8,820 nucleotides of DNA, from NCBI GenBank assembly GCA_017431185.1, contig JAFRLP010000506.1, forward strand, positions 1 through 8,820, written 5' to 3'. Below the pieces are notes generated by a model. The model ran no database searches. It had not been told where the DNA came from and was given only the letters and a program-made list of their open reading frames with translations. The DNA comes from Victivallales bacterium. Lineage in GTDB: Bacteria > Verrucomicrobiota > Lentisphaeria > Oligosphaerales > Oligosphaeraceae. The translations under genes were made by a program, and so were the position numbers. Position 1 is the first letter of the stretch. Each line of letters begins with the position of its first letter. Of this stretch, positions 1 to 8,820 are shown in pieces.

Positions 1-1
1 C

Positions 2-289
2 AGCGATATGGACTTGAGCAATGAGGAGAACCTGAACGCCATCACCCTCGTGGGTAGCCTTTCCCAGATGATCATCCCCGACAAGCAGGGCCGCTTCAGC
101 ATCTCCAAGGAAATCCAGGAGTATGCCCACCTCGACAAAAAGGCCGTGCTGGTCGGCGCCATCGCCTTTGGCCGCATCATCTCCGAGGAACTCTGGGAGA
201 AATGCGGTCGGAATCCCGCCAATCTCGTCAAACTCGAAAAAGAACTCTTCGCCGCCAAGCAGCGTTCGCAAAATCACTCCTCCAACTAG
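2..289 (+). CDS. mraZ: MraZ, transcriptional regulator of the dcw cluster (C-terminal part, cut by the window start)
   Basis: MraZ is a DNA-binding protein of the SpoVT/AbrB fold that sits first in the dcw cluster and, in species where it was tested, represses the cluster promoter. Only about 95 residues are visible. They correspond to the second of the two AbrB-like repeats, including the DXXXR signature DKQGR (codons from about 80), followed by ISKEIQEYAHLDKKAVLVG and an ELWEK segment, as in the C-terminal half of MraZ proteins. Full-length members are about 140-150 residues and the frame is open to base 2, so the ATG at 8 is most likely an internal methionine and the true start lies upstream. 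The stop (TAG 287-289) is 3 bases before rsmH. The family's usual binding sites upstream of mraZ are outside the window. Confidence 0.93.
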   Translation, partial: SDMDLSNEENLNAITLVGSLSQMIIPDKQGRFSISKEIQEYAHLDKKAVLVGAIAFGRIISEELWEKCGRNPANLVKLEKELFAAKQRSQNHSSN

Positions 290-292
290 CCC

Positions 293-1225
293 ATGACCTT
301 CCGCCACACACCAGTTCTGCTCAACGAGACCATCGCGTCGCTCAAAGACGCGGCGGGCATCCGTTTTGTGGACGGGACGCTCGGCGGGGCCGGCCACGCC
401 TCCGCGCTTCTGACGGCGCGACCTGACGCCACATTGCTGGGCATTGACCGGGATGAGGAGGCCGTGGAGGCCGCCACCGCCACGCTGGCCCAGTTTGGCG
501 GGCGGGCAACCGTCCGGCACGGCAACTACGCGGAGATGCGCCGCCTGGCGAATGAACTCGGCTGGGAAAGCGTGGACGGCGGAATACTGCTTGACCTGGG
601 AGTCTCCTCCCACCAGCTCGACGAGGCCTCCCGCGGATTCTCCTTCCGCTTTGACGCACCCCTGGACATGCGGATGGACAGGAGCAGCCCCTTGACCGCC
701 GCGAAAATCCTCAATGAATATCCCGAAAAGCAATTGGCCGATTTGCTCTACGAGTACGGCGAGGAGCGCAAGTCCAGGCAGATTGCCCGGGCTGTGGTCG
801 AGCGGCGTTCACAGCGTCCCTGGGCAACCACCGGGGAGTTTGCCGAACTGCTGGAGCGCATTGTGGGACGTGCCCATCAGCACGGGCTTCCCCCCGCCAC
901 ACGCTCTTTCCAGGCTTTGCGCATTGCCGTCAACGACGAGCTTGGCGCCTTGGAACGCGGATTGCAGGAGGCGGTTCAACTGGCTGCGCCAGGCGCCCGG
1001 CTGGCCGTCATCACCTTCCATTCGCTGGAGGACCGCATCGTGAAGCACTTTTTCCAGCACGAGGCGGCCACCTGCGTCTGCCCCCCAGGGCTGCCCATCT
1101 GCACCTGCGGCAAGATTCAGACCGTGCGGATAGTCACCCGCAAACCCATCCGTCCCGCGGATGAGGAGTGCAAAGCCAATTCGCGGGCGGCCTGCGCGAA
1201 GTTGCGCGTCGCCATCAAGATTTAG
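293..1225 (+). CDS. rsmH: RsmH (MraW), 16S rRNA m4C1402 N4-methyltransferase
   Basis: This 310-residue protein is a cytoplasmic S-adenosylmethionine-dependent methyltransferase. The family methylates the N4 position of C1402 in 16S rRNA in the ribosomal decoding centre. Visible hallmarks are the N-terminal HTPVLL (5-10), the SAM-binding loop DGTLGGAGH (27-35), DLGVSSHQLD (101-110), FRFDAPLDMRMD (118-129), GEERKSR (156-162), ATRSFQALRI (202-211) with VNDEL (213-217), and ITFHSLEDR (240-248). Length is normal for the family (about 300-315). A cysteine cluster near the C-terminus (C261, C263, C270, C272, pattern CxCP..CxC) is seen in a subset of RsmH proteins. The ATG at 293 lies 3 bases after the mraZ stop without a visible Shine-Dalgarno, which suggests translational coupling. 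This start gives the standard N-terminus. Confidence 0.98.
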   Translation: MTFRHTPVLLNETIASLKDAAGIRFVDGTLGGAGHASALLTARPDATLLGIDRDEEAVEAATATLAQFGGRATVRHGNYAEMRRLANELGWESVDGGILLDLGVSSHQLDEASRGFSFRFDAPLDMRMDRSSPLTAAKILNEYPEKQLADLLYEYGEERKSRQIARAVVERRSQRPWATTGEFAELLERIVGRAHQHGLPPATRSFQALRIAVNDELGALERGLQEAVQLAAPGARLAVITFHSLEDRIVKHFFQHEAATCVCPPGLPICTCGKIQTVRIVTRKPIRPADEECKANSRAACAKLRVAIKI

Positions 1226-1245
1226 TTCGAGAGCCACCATAAAAC

Positions 1246-1250
1246 AGGAG
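1246..1250 (+). promoter_or_regulatory. Ribosome binding site of the ftsL-like gene
   Basis: The AGGAG core ends 7 bases before the ATG at 1258. It fixes the start of the ftsL-like gene and is the clearest Shine-Dalgarno in the left half of the window. By contrast, neither rsmH nor ftsI has one. Confidence 0.8.
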
Positions 1251-1257
1251 AATTGCC

Positions 1258-1701
1258 ATGCAAGAGAGAGTCAACAAAGCCGACCGGAATTCGACAAGCC
1301 AAGGTTCACAGCAGTGGAGCAGCATGCTTTTTGCGGTCATCTTCATTGTTCTGGCCGCCTGGTGCGGAACCTACATCATCAACACGAAGGCTGACATCGC
1401 CGGCCTGGACGCCAAGATTGCCGTGCTGGAGAAGGACATAGCCACTCTTGACCAGTACATTGCCAACAGCCTCATGGAGCAGGAGAGCCTGAAGAACAAC
1501 CAGATTGTCGCCTTCGCCATTCGCGAAAAGATGACTTTGCCTGGCGATGGCCAGGTATGCATGGTTGCCCCCGAGAATGCCCCCGTGAGTCAGGAGCGCG
1601 AGACCATGCTGGCGCGTGGGCGTGGCCGCTCGAACGCCCAAAACCAGAATGTGGCCACCATCATCCAGCGTTCCACCCTGCCTGTGCGCATTCTGAAATG
1701 A
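1258..1701 (+). CDS. ftsL: FtsL-like septal division protein (small bitopic membrane protein)
   Basis: This 147-residue protein has a short polar cytoplasmic N-terminus (1-20), one strongly hydrophobic segment (about 22-41) and then a helical, heptad-like stretch (about 44-82) suited to a coiled coil. That is the FtsL layout: a type II membrane protein whose periplasmic coiled coil pairs with FtsB/DivIC and activates the FtsWI synthase. FtsL proteins diverge too much to recognise by motif, so the call rests on topology, size and position between rsmH and ftsI. Residues 88-104 (ending QVCMVAP) could be the short conserved strand after the coiled coil. The last 40 residues are hydrophilic and basic (LARGRGRSNAQNQN) and longer than in most FtsL proteins. 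The start is supported by AGGAG 7 bases upstream. Confidence 0.72.
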   Translation: MQERVNKADRNSTSQGSQQWSSMLFAVIFIVLAAWCGTYIINTKADIAGLDAKIAVLEKDIATLDQYIANSLMEQESLKNNQIVAFAIREKMTLPGDGQVCMVAPENAPVSQERETMLARGRGRSNAQNQNVATIIQRSTLPVRILK

Positions 1702-1841
1702 GTGTTCAGGACCGTTTGGCCCTGGGGGAGGAGCAGTCCAAGAAGTTTTTTTGTCCAGACCTGACGGGTCTGGCAACCCCGTGCTGAATCTCGGCGAAAT
1801 TAATGGGAGTTTCATTTGGCATGGCGCGTTTCTGAACAACG
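1702..1841 (+). other. 140-base spacer between the ftsL-like gene and ftsI
   Basis: This stretch holds no clear gene. It contains GGGGGAGGAG (1724-1733), which looks like a ribosome binding site but has no start codon at a usable distance, a T7 run (1746-1752) and a stem-loop (1755-1773). A 29-codon frame opens at an ATG overlapping the ftsL stop (ATGA, 1698-1701) and ends at 1787. The frame that is -1 relative to it is open from 1697 and ends at 1849, just inside ftsI. Neither resembles a protein I know. No good sigma-70 promoter was seen. Confidence 0.5.
1755..1773 (+). other. Perfect 7-bp stem-loop ahead of ftsI
   Basis: CCAGACC (1755-1761) and GGTCTGG (1767-1773) are exact reverse complements around a 5-base loop. 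The T7 run lies on the 5' side and no T tract follows, so it does not look like an intrinsic terminator on either strand. It could stabilise or process the ftsL-ftsI mRNA. The structure is plain in the sequence; its function is unknown. Confidence 0.55.
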
Positions 1842-4154
1842 ATGACTGACCAGCAATCAAGCCATCCCAGCGTCTCCTGCAAACCGGCTTCTCTTGTGAA
1901 GACGGGGTGGTCGCTTGCGGTCAGTTTTCTGCGTGACTTCCTTTTTTTGCGTCCGATGCCGCAGGGGGTGCGGCAGGCGCATCCCGTTTCGCAGAACATC
2001 CGTTTTGGAGTCTGCGCCCGCTTCCTGATTCCCGTTGTGGGAATTGCCCTGTTGTGCGGCGGAGTGCTATGCTCGCTTGTCAGGTTGCAGTTTAGCCGAT
2101 ACGAGGACAACCTCAAGCTTGCCAGGCGGAGATTGCGGTTTGTCCAACGGCTGATGGGAACACGCGGCCCCATTTTTGACATTGACAACAATATGCTGGC
2201 CGTGGACAAGAGGACCTGTGACCTTTATGTCACGCCGAAGCAGTTTCTGGACTCGCTTTCGGTCCTGAACCATAAAATGTCCCAGGAGAAAAAGGATGCG
2301 CTTTATCTCGATTTTTGTCAATGGCTGTCCAAATCCTGTGACGTGCCGCTGCCAGTGTTGCAGCAGCGACTCCAGAAAGTGCTGACGCCCTCCTTCCCTG
2401 TGACGATTCTGGAGACGATTGACATGGAGAGGGTGGCGGCTGCCTATAAACTGAAAGTGCGGTATCCCCAGTATCTGACCATTGCCGCGCCAGACAAGCA
2501 GTCGGAGCACACCTGGCGAATCGCCTTTGACCCGCGTCCCTGTGAAGATGATGCGTTCCTGCCGAGAATATGCTCTGAAGTGGAGAAATCGCTTCAGTTG
2601 GAGTCAGAGAGGATTCAAACCTGCATCCAGCGTACCCGAAAGCAGGAGCGCCCCGCCTTGCTGAAACGGAAGGTGGACTTGGATGAGGCCAAGGCCATTC
2701 TGAGCAGTTACCGTGAATGGGCCAAGGTCCCTGACACCGAAAAGTACCGCTGCGCTCCCACGGCCATCTATTTTGACGCCTCGACAAAACGCTTCTACCC
2801 CAAGGGTAAAATGCTTTCCAATCTCATCGGGTTCTGCGATTTGGATGGCAAGGCACTCGGAGGAGTCGAAAAACTTATGGATGACTACCTGAAGGGTGAG
2901 GTCAAGCGCAAGTACCTGGATTTGGATGGGAGGACGCCGCGCAGTTCCTACGCCAAGGAAATCTACGCATCGGAACTCAACGGCGCGGCGGTGCATCTCA
3001 CGGTGCAGCTGGCCGTCCAGCAAATCGTCGAGAACGCCATGGACAACCTGGTTGCGGAGCATCGGCCCAAGCGCGCGTATGCCGTGATGCTTCAGCCTCA
3101 GACGGGTGCGATTATGGCTTTGGCGCAGTATCCAAGCGAGGACTTCAACGGAGTGCGTGGCAAGGATGGGATAGGGCGTGAATTCCATGCCTTGTACACC
3201 TGCTATGAGCCTGGCTCCATCATGAAGGCGGTCAGCGTGTCGTCCGCGATCGACTACGCCAATCTTTCGATAGACCAGGAGTACGACTGCGAGAATGGGG
3301 ATTGGCGGTTCCGCGGAGGCAAGGCCATCCATGAGCATGGCAGAATGCGTCTGGGGATTACCCCGCTGTGGAAAATCATCCAGAAGTCCAGCAACATCGG
3401 TCCAGGCAAGGCGGTGACAGAGAACATGACGGACAAAAGGTTTTACGAGTACCTGCTGAACTTTGGGTTGGGGCGCAGGACATGCGTCGGCTTCTTTCCC
3501 GGCGTGGAAGGGTCGGATACCCTGGAACGGCACTGCTTCCCCAGCGAGTCGCCTGGCATCCTCAGGCCGGAGGAGCGCTGGAACAAGATTGACATTGCGC
3601 GAATCTGCTATGGACACACCATTTCCGTCACCCCTTTCCAAATGGTTCAGGCATACGCCGCGATTGCCAATGGCGGTGAGATGATGCAGCCATACATCGT
3701 TGACCGGCTAGTCAAAGCCAACGGGGAGGTCATCCGCTCCGTTCCGCATGTGAAGTCGCAGCCGATATCCCAGGAGGCCGCATACCGCATCACGGAATGC
3801 CTGAAGACGGTGGTCAAGCCCGGCGGCACGGCAGTCAGCGCGGCGGTGCCCGGCTATGCGGTTGCCGGCAAAACCGGAACCGCCATCAAGGCAGTGCGCC
3901 TGCCAAATGGCAAAATCGGCTATGACAGGCGTCTGAATGTCGCCAGTTTCGTGGGTTTCGTGCCAGCGGACTCTCCGGCGTTTGTCATGCTCATTACCGT
4001 TGACGAACCCAGCGGAAAACAGCAGTACGGCGGCAGCGTTTGCGGAAGCACCTTCTCGTTCATCGCCTCCGAGACGCTGAAAATCCTGCAGGTTCCGCCT
4101 ACGGCTCCCGATGAATTGCAGGCTGGAAAGACGCAACGAACCACCCAACGGTGA
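1842..4154 (+). CDS. ftsI: FtsI (PBP3-type), septal peptidoglycan DD-transpeptidase, unusually long
   Basis: This class B penicillin-binding protein cross-links peptide stems during septation. It is inner-membrane anchored with a periplasmic catalytic domain and partners FtsW. Order: cytoplasmic N-terminus of about 55 residues, transmembrane helix (about 58-80), dimerisation/pedestal domain beginning RGPIFDIDNNMLA (108-120) and closing around RFYPKGKMLSNLIGF (317-331) and GVEKLMDDYLKGE (341-353), then transpeptidase (about 385-750). All three active-site motifs are present: SIMK with nucleophile S459, SSN at 516-518, and KTGT at 677-680. There are no PASTA repeats. At 770 residues it is well above the 550-650 usual for FtsI. 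About 100 extra residues lie between about 140 and 300, part of them charged and helical (for example around 255-285). No Shine-Dalgarno precedes the ATG at 1842, but in-frame stops just upstream (TGA 1785 and 1833) leave no earlier methionine. FtsI is preferred over elongation PBP2 because of its place between ftsL and murE. Confidence 0.94.
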   Translation: MTDQQSSHPSVSCKPASLVKTGWSLAVSFLRDFLFLRPMPQGVRQAHPVSQNIRFGVCARFLIPVVGIALLCGGVLCSLVRLQFSRYEDNLKLARRRLRFVQRLMGTRGPIFDIDNNMLAVDKRTCDLYVTPKQFLDSLSVLNHKMSQEKKDALYLDFCQWLSKSCDVPLPVLQQRLQKVLTPSFPVTILETIDMERVAAAYKLKVRYPQYLTIAAPDKQSEHTWRIAFDPRPCEDDAFLPRICSEVEKSLQLESERIQTCIQRTRKQERPALLKRKVDLDEAKAILSSYREWAKVPDTEKYRCAPTAIYFDASTKRFYPKGKMLSNLIGFCDLDGKALGGVEKLMDDYLKGEVKRKYLDLDGRTPRSSYAKEIYASELNGAAVHLTVQLAVQQIVENAMDNLVAEHRPKRAYAVMLQPQTGAIMALAQYPSEDFNGVRGKDGIGREFHALYTCYEPGSIMKAVSVSSAIDYANLSIDQEYDCENGDWRFRGGKAIHEHGRMRLGITPLWKIIQKSSNIGPGKAVTENMTDKRFYEYLLNFGLGRRTCVGFFPGVEGSDTLERHCFPSESPGILRPEERWNKIDIARICYGHTISVTPFQMVQAYAAIANGGEMMQPYIVDRLVKANGEVIRSVPHVKSQPISQEAAYRITECLKTVVKPGGTAVSAAVPGYAVAGKTGTAIKAVRLPNGKIGYDRRLNVASFVGFVPADSPAFVMLITVDEPSGKQQYGGSVCGSTFSFIASETLKILQVPPTAPDELQAGKTQRTTQR

Positions 4155-4197
4155 CTTTTTTGCTTTTTTTTAGCTTTTTTCTGAAAATTTTTTACTT
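4155..4197 (+). other. T-rich tract after ftsI
   Basis: Directly after the ftsI stop are four T runs (6, 8, 6 and 6 bases), separated by short GC, AGC and CTGAAAA interruptions. No GC-rich stem precedes them, so this is not a classical intrinsic terminator. Its 3' end doubles as the UP-element-like block of the promoter described next. Confidence 0.6.
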
Positions 4198-4231
4198 AGC
4201 TCTTTGACACAGAGACGAAGATGGTTATCTT
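4181..4231 (+). promoter_or_regulatory. Strong sigma-70-type promoter candidate with UP-element-like block
   Basis: A perfect -35 hexamer TTGACA (4204-4209) is followed after 16 bases by TATCTT (4226-4231), a 4/6 match to TATAAT. TATAGT (4231-4236) is a better hexamer, but at 21 bases its spacing is poor. Just upstream, the A/T block 4183-4193 matches 10 of 11 positions of the distal UP-element consensus AAAWWTWTTTT, in the expected register to the -35. The proximal part matches only 1 of 3. The predicted start is about 4238, at the foot of a hairpin. No protein gene begins within 350 bases, which points to an RNA gene or a long leader. The -35 also lies inside the 5' arm of the long inverted repeat, so chance must be considered. 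Confidence 0.55.
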
Positions 4232-4284
4232 ATAGTACGAAACCATGTTTTTTGGTTTCACTCTTGTGTGCATTGTTCCAACAA

Positions 4285-4305
4285 CCCATCAACCCCCATC
4301 AACCC
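4285..4305 (+). repeat. Short tandem repeat CCCATCAACC, two copies
   Basis: CCCATCAACCC occurs at 4285-4295 and again at 4295-4305, giving a 10-base period, and a further CCCAC follows. These C-rich blocks are the partners of the TGGG-rich stretch at 4477-4511. They are therefore probably part of a helix rather than an independent repeat array. Confidence 0.6.
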
Positions 4306-4478
4306 ACGTCTCCAAAGTGCCTGATGGCATTGGTGCATTCGTCAGTTCCCTAATCGCCTGAAATGAGGCTTGTCACCCTTCCAGGTGGTTCTGAACTGGG
4401 GATTTCGCCAATTCACTGCTGTTATTACGGTCGCGTGTGCGACTGTCTGCGGAAAAAAGTTCGGCATTCGGTCATTGT

Positions 4479-4511
4479 GGGATAGATGGGAAGATGGGTG
4501 GGGACATTGGG
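4479..4511 (+). other. G-quadruplex motif (five G runs)
   Basis: Runs of three or four G at 4479-4481, 4488-4490, 4496-4498, 4500-4503 and 4509-4511 are separated by 6, 5, 1 and 5 bases, meeting the G3+N1-7 definition. The runs are on the + strand, so the murE-side RNA would carry them. They are the same bases that pair with the CCC blocks at 4285-4307 and with 4271-4279, so quadruplex and helix exclude each other. Confidence 0.55.
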
Positions 4512-4553
4512 CTTATATCTCTCCTTCCTTACATCTTTTCTGGTAGCCGCTTC

Positions 4554-4580
4554 GCCTCTGTGTCAAGGGGCTTTTTTTTT
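4554..4580 (+). terminator. Rho-independent terminator just upstream of murE
   Basis: GCCTCT (4554-4559) pairs with AGGGGC (4566-4571) across the 6-base loop GTGTCA, with one T-G pair, followed directly by nine T (4572-4580). The T run ends only 17 bases before the murE ATG, and I see no promoter between them. Transcription that reaches murE must therefore read through it. Both hairpin arms lie inside the 3' arm of the long inverted repeat (4550-4572), so pairing with 4198-4220 would prevent this hairpin from forming. Confidence 0.7.
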
Positions 4581-4585
4581 GCCCT

Positions 4586-4591
4586 GAAAGG
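4586..4591 (+). promoter_or_regulatory. Ribosome binding site of murE
   Basis: GAAAGG ends 6 bases before the ATG at 4598, giving a moderate Shine-Dalgarno immediately after the terminator T run. GCCC (4581-4584) just ahead of it could pair with GGGC at 4568-4571, bringing the site close to local structure. Confidence 0.6.
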
Positions 4592-4597
4592 TCCCTC

Positions 4598-6124
4598 ATG
4601 GATTGTCAAACACTATTGAACATTCTTGACGGTCATCGCCTGCTGTCTGCCTTTGGCGGCCCCTTGACAAAACCTCTCACTGGAGCCTCGCCGGATTCCC
4701 GTCAAATACGGCCAGGCAATCTGTTCTGCGCCATGAAAGGGGCCAGGCTGGATGGGCATCTGTTTATTCCGGAGGCTCTGGCAAAGGGAGCGGTGGCCGT
4801 GCTTGTTGAGCATCCTGTGTCGCTCCCTCCTGACGTGGCGTGGATTCAAGTGCGCCGTGCCTACGAGGCGTTTGGCCTTGTGGCGGAGGCGGTTGCGGGA
4901 AGACCGGCGGACAGCCTGAGGCTGATTGCCGTCACGGGCACCAATGGTAAGACGACTACCGCCTATCTGCTGCGAGCCATCCTCTCCGCCGCCGGCCATG
5001 CCACGGGAATGGTTGGCACTGTCGAATACGACCTGGGCGCCAAGGCCGCTGCGGGACAAGAGAAGGGACACGCCATTGTCTTGCCCGCCGACCGTACCAC
5101 CCCCACGCCTTTCCTGCTTCAGGAACTCTTCGCCCGCATGGTGGAGAACCGCGTGGAATACGCTGTCCTGGAGGCATCGAGCCATGCTCTCGCGCAACGG
5201 CGTCTCGGAACCGCCGCCTGCGCGGGGGCGGTGTTCACCAATCTGACGGAAGACCATCTGGATTATCATCGCACCATGGACGAGTATTACGAGGCGAAAA
5301 AACTTCTATGCACCCGTCATCTGGCGAAAGCTGCACCGATGGCCATCAATTGCGATGATTCCTACGGGCGCCGGCTGACTCGCGAGTTGAGTTCTGACAT
5401 ACGAACCTTCGGCTTCTCTTTTCATGGCGACTCCTGCGCCAATGTCCAGGCCAGCCTGAACAGCCAGTCCGCCACCGGCAGCGCCTTCACGCTTTATTTC
5501 CCCGACGGACAACGCTGGGAGGTCTCCACGCCTCTGCCAGGGGGCTACAACGCTCAGAATGCGGCTGGCGCAGCCGTGCTGGCGTGGGCCTTGAACATTC
5601 CGTCTGCCGACGCTTGCCGTGCTGTACGCGAATGCCCTGGCGCACCAGGACGGCTTCAGTCCATCCCCATCCCCGGGCAGAGATTCGCCGCCTTCGTGGA
5701 CTATGCCCATACGGACGACGCGCTCACCAACGTGCTGACCACATTGCGCAATCTTCCTCATCACCGGCTTTTGGTTGTGTTTGGCTGCGGCGGTGACCGC
5801 GACCGTGCCAAGCGACCGAAGATGGGACGCGCCGCCGCGCAATTGGCGGACAGGCTCTACGTCACCAGCGACAACCCGCGCACGGAACGGCCTGAGGCGA
5901 TTATCGACGAGATTCTGCCAGGAATTCCTGCTGGAACGGATTATGTCGCCATCCCCGACCGCAGGGAGGCGATTCGCCAGGCCATGCATGAGGCGACCGC
6001 TGGCGACATTTTACTGGTGGCGGGGAAAGGGCACGAGGACTACCAGGAAATCAACGGCGTGAAACACCATTTCAATGACGCCGAGGAGATTGCAGCCGCC
6101 GTTGCCCTGCTGCCCGCATATTGA
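4598..6124 (+). CDS. murE: MurE, UDP-MurNAc-L-Ala-D-Glu:meso-diaminopimelate ligase
   Basis: This cytoplasmic ATP-dependent Mur ligase adds the third residue of the peptidoglycan stem peptide. Its 508 residues have the three-domain Mur layout: N-terminal UDP-MurNAc-binding domain (about 1-105, with SPDSRQIRPGNLFCAMKG at 31-48), central ATPase domain with P-loop TGTNGKTTT (113-121), and C-terminal domain from about 350. Other hallmarks are the TTPTPFLLQ segment (167-175), EASSHAL (192-198), TNLTEDHLDYH (214-224), the lysine expected to be carbamylated (K234 in YEAKKLL), VDYAHTDDAL (367-376), FGCGGDRDRAKRPKMG (395-410) and AGKGHEDYQ (475-483). DNPR (425-428) is the family's signature for meso-diaminopimelate rather than lysine. 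The start gives a standard N-terminus behind GAAAGG. It is separated from ftsI by 443 bases and a terminator, so it is probably not simply co-transcribed. The next gene is convergent, so murF does not follow. Confidence 0.97.
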   Translation: MDCQTLLNILDGHRLLSAFGGPLTKPLTGASPDSRQIRPGNLFCAMKGARLDGHLFIPEALAKGAVAVLVEHPVSLPPDVAWIQVRRAYEAFGLVAEAVAGRPADSLRLIAVTGTNGKTTTAYLLRAILSAAGHATGMVGTVEYDLGAKAAAGQEKGHAIVLPADRTTPTPFLLQELFARMVENRVEYAVLEASSHALAQRRLGTAACAGAVFTNLTEDHLDYHRTMDEYYEAKKLLCTRHLAKAAPMAINCDDSYGRRLTRELSSDIRTFGFSFHGDSCANVQASLNSQSATGSAFTLYFPDGQRWEVSTPLPGGYNAQNAAGAAVLAWALNIPSADACRAVRECPGAPGRLQSIPIPGQRFAAFVDYAHTDDALTNVLTTLRNLPHHRLLVVFGCGGDRDRAKRPKMGRAAAQLADRLYVTSDNPRTERPEAIIDEILPGIPAGTDYVAIPDRREAIRQAMHEATAGDILLVAGKGHEDYQEINGVKHHFNDAEEIAAAVALLPAY

Positions 6125-6154
6125 GGGCAGGCCAGTGTTCGTGTTCCGCGTCTT

Positions 6155-8820
6155 TTAGCGGAGGGTTCTGATTAATACCGCCTGATAGGGGGGCAGGGTC
6201 AATTCCTGACCTGAGGCAAATGGCTTTTCCTGGCCTGTGAGCGGGTCAAGCAGAGTGGCCTCCGCCGGCTGTCCTGGCAACGTCACCTTCACGGTGCGGG
6301 TCTCCTTGGTTGCGTTCAGCACGGTGGCCAATGTTCCTTTGCCATTCGTCCAGTAACTGATGGGGACGTCTTTTTCTCCAGTTGTGGCTACGTCAGGATT
6401 GGGCTTCCAGTATGGGTGGAAGGAGGCGTCCTCCAGGCCAAAACCGTAGAGCCAGCAAACCATCCGCTTGCTGACATCGGCATTGATGAAACTGGGGTAG
6501 AGCATGCAGTTGTGGAGGAATGCCAGGCCAACGGTGCTGGCGGCGATTTCAGGGGAGGCGATTTTGTCTGGCTGGCGGTACTGTGGCAGGAACATTCTGT
6601 CTGGCCCGATGCACACGGCGTTTTCGTAGCGGAACTGGTCAAGCGTCAGGAATTCCAGGTAATAGGTGTGGAGCATGCATTGAGCGCGGTACTGCTCTCC
6701 CATCAGGGTGACATTGGTGAATCCCGCGGAGGTGCAGGCCTGCTGCCCTCCCGCATGGGTGAAGGTGAAGAAGCCAGGATGCACATGATTGGTGGTCAGG
6801 TAGATGCGTTCATGGAATTGCCTGGTGCCGAAGGTGGGATGAAAATTCTCGCCGTTGATGGTCAGCAGGTCTGAACCATAGCAGTCGTAGTAGAATCCCC
6901 GCCAGGGGAACTTCTTCAGGTATTCCACGCACATGTGGCAGTACAAATCCTGCCAGAGCGTGTTGCGCATGTCGCATTTGCGCATTTTGGCGTTTTTGCC
7001 AAATCCCTTGAGCACATAATAGCGGGCTGGGAACCCCTGCCATTCAGACTCGAAATAGCGGTATTCGGGCATGGTGTCGGTGATGTAGAAGGGAATCTGG
7101 TAGAGAGTGTTGATGGCGCCTGGCTCCTGAAGTCTTTGGGCGTGGCGCATGGTCTCCGAATCATCCTTGCTGGCGGGGAGCCCGACGTATTTCATCGGTT
7201 TCATGCTGCTCATCATGTTGAAATTGGTGTACTCGTGGGCGCGGAACCGCAGTTTTCGCCAGTGTCCGGCAGAGGGACGGAACGGCCAGGGCATCACCGC
7301 GAACGCCATGCCGAAAGGCGCGGACCGCTCCCATTTGACTGGTGAATTGACCAGCCGCACCGAGAAATCTCCGTCAAGTGTGGCTTTGGTGACGGTGTGC
7401 TTGAAGTCATTTTCGGCGGGATAGGAGGCGGGAGAGTACCAGGCAATCCCGCGCTCGACGTTGCCCAGCATCATTTCATGGTAGCGGTGAGAGGTCTCCC
7501 ATTGTTTGGCGACCTTCAGGTCAACGGCTCCGATGTTGCTCCAGCTGCCGTCCGAACGGTGGACAAACTCGGTGTCCTTGACTGCATAGGACACCACGAT
7601 GGATTCGACGCCATCGGGCATGGTGAGCGTCAGGTCGTAGCGTACAAAGCCCATGTAGTCCATGAGCATGGACAGAACTCCTTTTCTCCCTTGAAATGTG
7701 ACGGGGAGATGGGCGGACATGCGTGCCGTTCCATCCTTCCAGGTGATTTCTCCTGCGGGGCTGACGCCTTGTCCGTCGACGGTGATGGACAGGCCTCGTT
7801 TGAGCAACGGCTGTCCGTCCGCTCCAGTGATCTGTTCCAGTTCAAGCGTGTCGTTGAAGTGGTACTCTCCGTTCCATGCCTTGACGGTTTTTCCTTGGCG
7901 GGCGAGATTTTGCCAAGGGGCGGGGGCTGGCGCGTCATCAGCCAATATGCCCAGGCTGTTTGCCCAGTAAGGTTGTTTGTAGATGCCGAAATGACGCGGT
8001 TCGGCGGTCATGGACTGGCCGTTGGAAAGCGCGACTTTGGCATGAAGCATGTATTCGCCATCGGGATAATCGTCAACCTTGACCGTCAACGGCTCGTTGG
8101 CAGGGTTTTCGATGGTGCGGAACACCGTGTTGTCCATCCTGCGTATTTCGTAGGTGTTGCGGAGGGGGGATGCATCCCCCAAATCACCCAGTACAGGGCA
8201 GGACAGATTCATGATATGGCGCGACGGGATAAAGGATTGACGGAGGTCTGGGCCGACAGCCCCTTCTTCAAACTTGAGTTGGTCAAACTGGATGACCGCG
8301 TCTTCTGGGAACAGCCGCATGTTGAACATGATGTCCAGCAGGGCGGAATGCGCGGGTGTCCTGAAGTCGAAGACCAGTTCCTTCCATTCGCCGTTGGTCG
8401 GCTTGACGCTGACTCGTGGCTGGTCAAGGCGCTTGCGCTGCGCGTCCATGCACTCGAACATGAAGAGTTTGATTCCTGCGCTGAAATGCCTGGATGCCTT
8501 GTACCAGCAGGAGAAACGGTAGTTGCGGTCAGGCTCCACCGCCAGGTTGTAGATGACGAGCGGGTACTGCATCTTGGAGCCGTCCCCGTGGATTTCCAGA
8601 AATGACTCTCCTGCTTTGGCCTGCTTCCAGTCCATCACGACCTTGGAGCCTGGCCCCAGGGAATAATGCTCGAAATGCTGTTGCCCCAGAAAGGTCCAAT
8701 TGTCGAAAATGGTGTCCAGAAAACGTGCCTTGAAGAACCCCTTGTCCTCGGTGACATTGGCCACCCGCAGGTTGTCCACGAGCAGATGGCTCTCCTGTGG
8801 CACTTTGTCCAGGCGGATCA
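6155..8820 (-). CDS. Large multidomain glycoside-hydrolase-like protein (5' end beyond the window)
   Basis: The frame is open to the right edge. A GTG at 8803-8801 is preceded by open codons reading IRLDK, so it is probably internal and the gene starts outside the window. At least 887 residues are seen; numbering here counts the GTG as 1. Layout: about 30-182, a beta-sandwich like carbohydrate-binding modules (YRFSCWYKAS at 95-104, GEWKELVFDF at 138-147, and IQFDQLKFEEG at 171-181); about 200-275, an Ig-like linker; about 285-540, a large beta-rich domain; about 560-800, a likely TIM-barrel catalytic domain with WRGFYYDCYGSD (634-645), THAGGQ (682-687) and GEQYR (702-706); 815-882, a small C-terminal beta domain with LLDPLTGQE and PPYQAVLIRTL, as at the end of many glycosidases. 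It recalls the GH123/DUF6067-type proteins common in Lentisphaerae and Bacteroidetes, but this is from memory of family style. Substrate and catalytic residues are not established, and any signal peptide lies outside the window. It is convergent with murE across 30 bases, with no visible terminator. Confidence 0.7.
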   Translation of the reverse strand, partial: IRLDKVPQESHLLVDNLRVANVTEDKGFFKARFLDTIFDNWTFLGQQHFEHYSLGPGSKVVMDWKQAKAGESFLEIHGDGSKMQYPLVIYNLAVEPDRNYRFSCWYKASRHFSAGIKLFMFECMDAQRKRLDQPRVSVKPTNGEWKELVFDFRTPAHSALLDIMFNMRLFPEDAVIQFDQLKFEEGAVGPDLRQSFIPSRHIMNLSCPVLGDLGDASPLRNTYEIRRMDNTVFRTIENPANEPLTVKVDDYPDGEYMLHAKVALSNGQSMTAEPRHFGIYKQPYWANSLGILADDAPAPAPWQNLARQGKTVKAWNGEYHFNDTLELEQITGADGQPLLKRGLSITVDGQGVSPAGEITWKDGTARMSAHLPVTFQGRKGVLSMLMDYMGFVRYDLTLTMPDGVESIVVSYAVKDTEFVHRSDGSWSNIGAVDLKVAKQWETSHRYHEMMLGNVERGIAWYSPASYPAENDFKHTVTKATLDGDFSVRLVNSPVKWERSAPFGMAFAVMPWPFRPSAGHWRKLRFRAHEYTNFNMMSSMKPMKYVGLPASKDDSETMRHAQRLQEPGAINTLYQIPFYITDTMPEYRYFESEWQGFPARYYVLKGFGKNAKMRKCDMRNTLWQDLYCHMCVEYLKKFPWRGFYYDCYGSDLLTINGENFHPTFGTRQFHERIYLTTNHVHPGFFTFTHAGGQQACTSAGFTNVTLMGEQYRAQCMLHTYYLEFLTLDQFRYENAVCIGPDRMFLPQYRQPDKIASPEIAASTVGLAFLHNCMLYPSFINADVSKRMVCWLYGFGLEDASFHPYWKPNPDVATTGEKDVPISYWTNGKGTLATVLNATKETRTVKVTLPGQPAEATLLDPLTGQEKPFASGQELTLPPYQAVLIRTLR

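Follow-up and report, generated by a model that had tools for sequence, protein, structure and literature searches.

A strand-biased candidate structured RNA between ftsI and murE of a Victivallales bacterium, and its possible role as a terminating leader of murE

In the cell-wall gene cluster of a Victivallales bacterium (assembly GCA_017431185.1, contig JAFRLP010000506.1), ftsI and murE are separated by a gap of 443 bases (4155-4597). Does this gap encode a structured RNA, and what could such an RNA do for murE? We analysed positions 1 to 8,820 of the contig, referred to here as the window. Domain and family profile matches gave the gene order mraZ-rsmH-ftsL-ftsI-element-murE, with mraZ to murE all on the plus strand and ftsL assigned from a weak match. 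The genes that matter most here are:

1-289, plus strand: mraZ-like frame, open at the left edge of the window, 93 residues counted from the first ATG
1842-4154, plus strand: ftsI (FtsI/PBP2-type transpeptidase), 770 residues, Pfam PF00905 and PF03717
4598-6124, plus strand: murE, 508 residues, TIGR01085 above cut-off
6155-8803, minus strand: gene converging on murE, 882 residues

The mraZ-like frame matched the MraZ models of Pfam and NCBIfam below their cut-offs, as expected for a truncated gene. An FtsI homologue with 84% identity has its C-terminal end at the same residue as the FtsI of the window, and because a MurE homologue with 86% identity aligns from residue 1, with the same start, the murE start at 4598 is supported; the sequence AAAGG lies six bases 5' of this ATG. 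The claim of a sequence-only reading that a non-coding span lies between the two genes therefore holds. The sole listed frame of at least 60 residues that overlaps the element (4437-4619) had no Pfam match and no candidate in the protein set, and was rejected as coding. The G+C content is 0.48 within the element and 0.19 in the adjoining 4155-4197. The closest named relatives of both proteins are from Victivallales, an order of Lentisphaerota (45% identity for FtsI, 62% for MurE). A search of genome contigs with FtsI returned three distant loci (Salisediminibacterium, a Lachnospiraceae bacterium and Solobacterium), and viral contigs gave one weak MurE-like stretch of 26 residues. As for the 882-residue protein, it showed a weak carbohydrate-binding domain match (PF02018) under the cut-off, no NCBIfam match, and a sequence search at E up to 0.01 found no relative with a solved structure.

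The element (4198-4580) begins and ends with an inverted repeat, 4198-4220 and 4550-4572 (23 bases, 87% complementary), exactly the outer helix that had been read from the letters, and the arms on the plus strand indeed differ from perfect pairing by two G-U pairs and one A-C. In the predicted RNA fold this helix grows to 30 pairs (4198-4229 with 4542-4572), five of them G-U, with a mean pair probability of 0.99. The features of the element and its 5' flank are:

4121-4175, plus strand: hairpin plus downstream T, extending over the 3' end of ftsI (fold of 4120-4180)
4198-4229, plus strand: 5' arm of the outer helix, 30 pairs with 4542-4572, one A-C mismatch and one bulged base
4204-4231, plus strand: promoter-like TTGACA-16-TATCTT, 10 of 12 matches, within the 5' arm
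4239-4259, plus strand: 7-pair hairpin, mean pair probability 0.99, which would come first in an RNA begun at the internal promoter
4268-4512, plus strand: inner rod of stacked helices (10, 8, 6, 6, 2 and 6 pairs) that run into a branched centre (predicted fold)
4322-4424, plus strand: central long arm with helices of 8, 6, 9, 9 and 4 pairs; mean probability 0.58 for the 8-pair and the 4-pair helix
4427-4446, plus strand: 8-pair hairpin ACGGUCGC/GCGACUGU, mean pair probability 0.92
4513-4541, plus strand: pyrimidine-rich stretch of 29 bases, unpaired in the fold, just 5' of the 3' arm (fold and sequence)
4542-4572, plus strand: 3' arm of the outer helix (repeat search, pair probabilities and duplex energy)
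4554-4580, plus strand: intrinsic-terminator-like hairpin of 6 pairs with a loop of 6, then nine T, within the 3' arm

How exceptional the arms are depends on how they are scored. As an arm-to-arm duplex, the plus strand reached -47.1 kcal/mol against -28.9 for the lowest of 2000 shuffles, and the minus strand -34.2 against -24.1. For the wider ends of the element, the duplex energy on the plus strand was -53.5 kcal/mol (lowest shuffle -44.4, 0 of 2000 as good), and on the minus strand -37.3 (1 of 2000); the regions for these duplex tests were picked with the arms already known. The arms stand out less when scored purely as an inverted repeat without gaps. With a mismatch penalty of -2 the score over 4155-4597 was 14, which 9 of 300 shuffles equalled or bettered and which stretches starting at 7801-8101 exceeded with 16. 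When G-U pairs were allowed, the element scored 20, a value reached by 12 of 1000 shuffles, and two of 85 windows were higher (21 at 6001 and 20.5 at 7101). With a mismatch penalty of -1 and no G-U pairs, none of 1000 shuffles reached the element. The standout feature of the outer repeat is the length of the helix spanning its bulge.

Inside the outer helix, the nested inner helices and local hairpins of the sequence-only reading are present, but the pair counts along the rod (strands 4268-4321 and 4463-4512) are 10, 8, 6, 6, 2 and 6 rather than the 8, 7, 6 and 5 given there. The subregion 4317-4460 on the plus strand is by itself more stable than its shuffles (z = -3.67, 0 of 200 as good). 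Within the rod (4282-4308 with 4476-4500), one strand carries near-repeats of CCCATCAAC and the opposite strand carries GATGGG repeats, which look as if the stem had grown through duplication.

The proposal that the span holds a structured RNA was supported by folding of 4198-4580 against dinucleotide shuffles. The plus strand folds at -152.9 kcal/mol (z = -7.16, 0 of 1000 shuffles as low), and smaller runs gave z = -9.17 (n = 100 shuffles), -7.22 (n = 200) and -7.99 (n = 24). Among 104 strand-windows of 383 bases sampled elsewhere in the window, each starting more than 400 bases from the element and compared with 24 shuffles, the lowest z was -3.36, against -7.99 for the element. The minus strand also folds, at -122.4 kcal/mol (z = -4.39, 0 of 1000). 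The strands part in the interior: 4230-4541 without the arms gave z = -4.05 on the plus strand (0 of 1000 shuffles as good) and z = -1.84 on the minus strand (42 of 1000). In the plus structure 18 of the 122 pairs are G-U and there is one A-C single mismatch; in the minus structure nine of 115 pairs are G-U, and A-C occurs three times. Since a palindrome kept as DNA or decaying should favour neither strand, this computed strand bias of the interior fold indicates that the RNA is what matters. It is the best evidence for an RNA role and, coming from a single sequence, is not proof. It is also better evidence than the arm variations, which had been taken as a sign of selection for RNA pairing: the G-U and A-C changes are there, but they are too few events to carry that conclusion. 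Taken together, the folding statistics and strand asymmetry support well a structured RNA on the plus strand. We regard the element as a strong candidate RNA known from one sequence, not as a proven family.

A second, smaller inverted repeat occurs in the ftsL-ftsI gap (1702-1841), where 12 bases at 1703-1714 and 1827-1838 close a fold just 5' of ftsI. This fold is not convincingly below its shuffles (z = -1.62 on the plus strand, 12 of 200 as good; z = -1.90 on the minus strand, 7 of 200) and is only suggestive.

A promoter-like site and a terminator had been described as bracketing the element. Both sites were found, but they lie inside the 5' and 3' arms and not outside them. In 4000-4750, one promoter-like site was found against 0.3 expected in shuffles, with matches scored against the sigma-70 consensus only; a transcript from 4204-4231 would start near 4238. 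Two terminator-like sites (4554-4580 and the hairpin 4239-4259) were found in the same region against 1.0 expected, and going by the pattern count alone the terminator at 4554-4580 is not beyond chance. By computation, its T-run stops 17 bases 5' of the murE ATG (4598). Because the promoter-like site sits inside the 5' arm, an RNA begun there would lack that arm, and the promoter-like site and the long helix cannot serve the same transcript. Equilibrium folds reflect this. For transcripts starting at 4110, 4155 or 4195, the 3' arm was held in the outer helix, which excludes the terminator hairpin (probability 0.0), while for a start at 4238 the hairpin had a probability of 0.45-0.91 for ends from 4572 to 4660.

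The end of ftsI may carry a terminator as well. The region 4120-4197 on the plus strand folds below most shuffles (z = -3.48, 2 of 200 as good), and the inner pairing 4142-4153 has a probability of 0.99. The hairpin 4121-4175, which is absent from the list of the consensus terminator scan, is a possible ftsI terminator, and it makes read-through from ftsI uncertain.

What would such an RNA do? The reading we favour, to which we give about even chances, is that murE has a structured non-coding RNA, read from the plus strand, as its 5' leader, and that this RNA probably accumulates on its own too, at a length of about 340-380 bases. Polymerase that starts at the promoter-like site (4204-4231) or arrives from ftsI would transcribe the folded body and then reach the terminator 17 bases 5' of the murE start codon. 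Some transcripts would end there and yield the small RNA, others would read through into the murE mRNA, and the fold of the leader would set the rate of read-through. We infer the transcription, the promoter use, the termination, the read-through and any signal that alters the read-through. There is no room for a promoter of ordinary size between the T-run and the murE ATG, and the next gene is on the opposite strand, so murE would have to be expressed by read-through of the element or from a start inside it. Since the outer helix reaches to this T-run too, termination might follow from either fold, which would weaken the case for a simple on/off switch.

A more specific scheme, which we consider a long shot, would let the origin of the transcript (the ftsI operon or the local promoter) decide murE expression without a ligand. 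The promoter would lie within one arm of the 30-pair helix, the 5' arm, and the terminator within the other. An RNA begun at the internal promoter would lack the 5' arm and stop before murE, while an RNA coming from ftsI would carry the 5' arm and capture the terminator strand in the long helix. Both states appear in the equilibrium folds, and the long helix, ending at the same T-run, may itself terminate. The two mutually exclusive folds make this idea directly testable.

No known RNA family was recognised in the sequence-only reading, and the Rfam check agrees with it: none of the 4227 families of release 15 matched in the window at gathering scores. With E up to 10, 4140-4620 gave just TarA at 17.2 bits (cut-off 80) and ctRNA_p42d at 13.2 bits (cut-off 50). 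ARAGORN found no tRNA or tmRNA gene in the window. In the open literature, the best-ranked matches included no paper on a structured RNA at ftsI-murE in this phylum. In PMC2864571, murE and ftsI occur solely in a reference title, and the main texts of PMC8040213 and PMC8632094 do not contain murE, ftsI, Lentisphaer or Victivall. The lack of an Rfam match and of a paper on an RNA at ftsI-murE is an absence in those sources only. Of the earlier description as a novel structured RNA candidate, the structured RNA is well supported, and the novel family stays a candidate. A suspected link of CACAGAG-type repeats to GxxExxY genes was dropped, as the parts of the literature consulted gave no support for it.

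Other explanations have to be weighed against the leader. The element could be a small RNA in its own right, acting in trans or of a housekeeping kind, that has a promoter and a terminator of its own and whose place between ftsI and murE is incidental; murE would then use another promoter, for instance inside the 3' part of the element. With a terminator-like structure on either side the unit would be self-contained, a hairpin starts at the predicted transcript start (4238-4239), and the fold is in our opinion elaborate for a plain attenuator. We nevertheless find this unlikely: the Rfam families include RNase P, tmRNA, 6S and SRP RNA, and neither these 4227 families nor ARAGORN gave a match; a terminator right before the ribosome site of murE is hard to explain if murE is unaffected; and if the 5' arm is promoter DNA, its complementarity to the 3' arm is left unexplained. 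The 30 nearly perfect pairs could instead be an RNase III processing stalk or mRNA-stability element, cut from the ftsI-murE transcript to uncouple the two genes. Thirty pairs are a sufficient length for RNase III, and the long stems around bacterial rRNA precursors get cut. This is improbable in our view, as such a stalk would work without the interior of about 310 bases, whose fold is significant on its own.

The symmetry of the arms also raises a mobile or repeat element, a MITE-like palindrome bounded by 23-base terminal inverted repeats, which would fold only because its DNA is symmetrical. The inverted repeats (23 nt, 87% complementary) are at both ends, the arm duplex is strong on both strands (-47.1 and -34.2 kcal/mol, 0 of 2000 shuffles each), and the whole minus strand also folds beyond its shuffles (z = -4.39, 0 of 1000). 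Against this, the interior fold is strand-biased, there is no second copy within the window and no abutting target-site duplication; T-runs aside, the longest word shared by the flanks is the 6-mer CTGAAA at 4181 and 4584, apart from the arms. Searches of 72,556 plasmid and 50,697 phage records gave no match at E up to 1, and of five exact patterns searched in viral contigs, four had no match and one had a lone 17-base match in unrelated surroundings, by our estimate (not computed) no more than chance would give. We therefore judge a mobile origin quite unlikely. Finally, the fold could be a chance product of a non-functional spacer, as it comes from a single sequence and as two of the three ungapped scorings had shuffles that matched the arms (9 of 300 and 12 of 1000). 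Because no shuffle was as good for the whole or for the interior on the plus strand (0 of 1000 each) or for the arm duplex (0 of 2000), we consider chance very improbable.

The termination-plus-read-through model of the murE leader, which we favour, has a precedent in UpsM, a 5'-UTR-derived small RNA of 268 nt from the dcw cluster of Rhodobacter sphaeroides (PMC5089854). Experiments on UpsM showed that termination gives the RNA and read-through the mRNA, with read-through estimated at about 1 in 100, and an extended UpsM leader was described for Rhodobacteraceae (PMC5089854). When the small RNA StsR pairs with UpsM, it makes UpsM accessible to RNase E and influences read-through (PMC8625941); the element might be controlled in a similar way. 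From the parts of these papers and of PMC8307010 used for the comparison, the likeness is a leader of a few hundred bases in a division and cell-wall cluster with an intrinsic terminator, termination and read-through being demonstrated for UpsM and predicted for the element. Between the leader and the coding region, the element has the pattern match at 4554-4580 (with 1.0 such match expected by chance in 4000-4750). The differences, compared by description, are that UpsM lies 5' of mraZ, the first gene, while the element is internal to the cluster, with ftsI before it and murE after it, that the element is longer, and that it is closed by a 30-pair helix that is not among the UpsM structured regions R1-R4 as described in the parts of PMC5089854 used. 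If conserved, the element would be a further case beside UpsM, the sole one found in our literature searches, of a division or cell-wall cluster under a terminating leader RNA.

A second comparison is with Acido-Lenti-1 (RF01687), a structured RNA listed for Acidobacteria and Lentisphaerae (PMC2864571), and so for the same phylum as the host of the element; RF01687 itself gave no match in the window at its gathering score. The element, if conserved, would constitute a distinct RNA family in Lentisphaerota, ahead of the gene of a peptidoglycan-precursor ligase.

Transcription-attenuating leaders and riboswitches place a large fold, then a terminator, ahead of a gene. The element likewise has a large fold, followed at the ribosome site of murE, a biosynthetic gene, by a terminator-like hairpin. 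It differs from this class in that Rfam recognised no known aptamer in it and that its own 5' end supplies the strand competing with the terminator.
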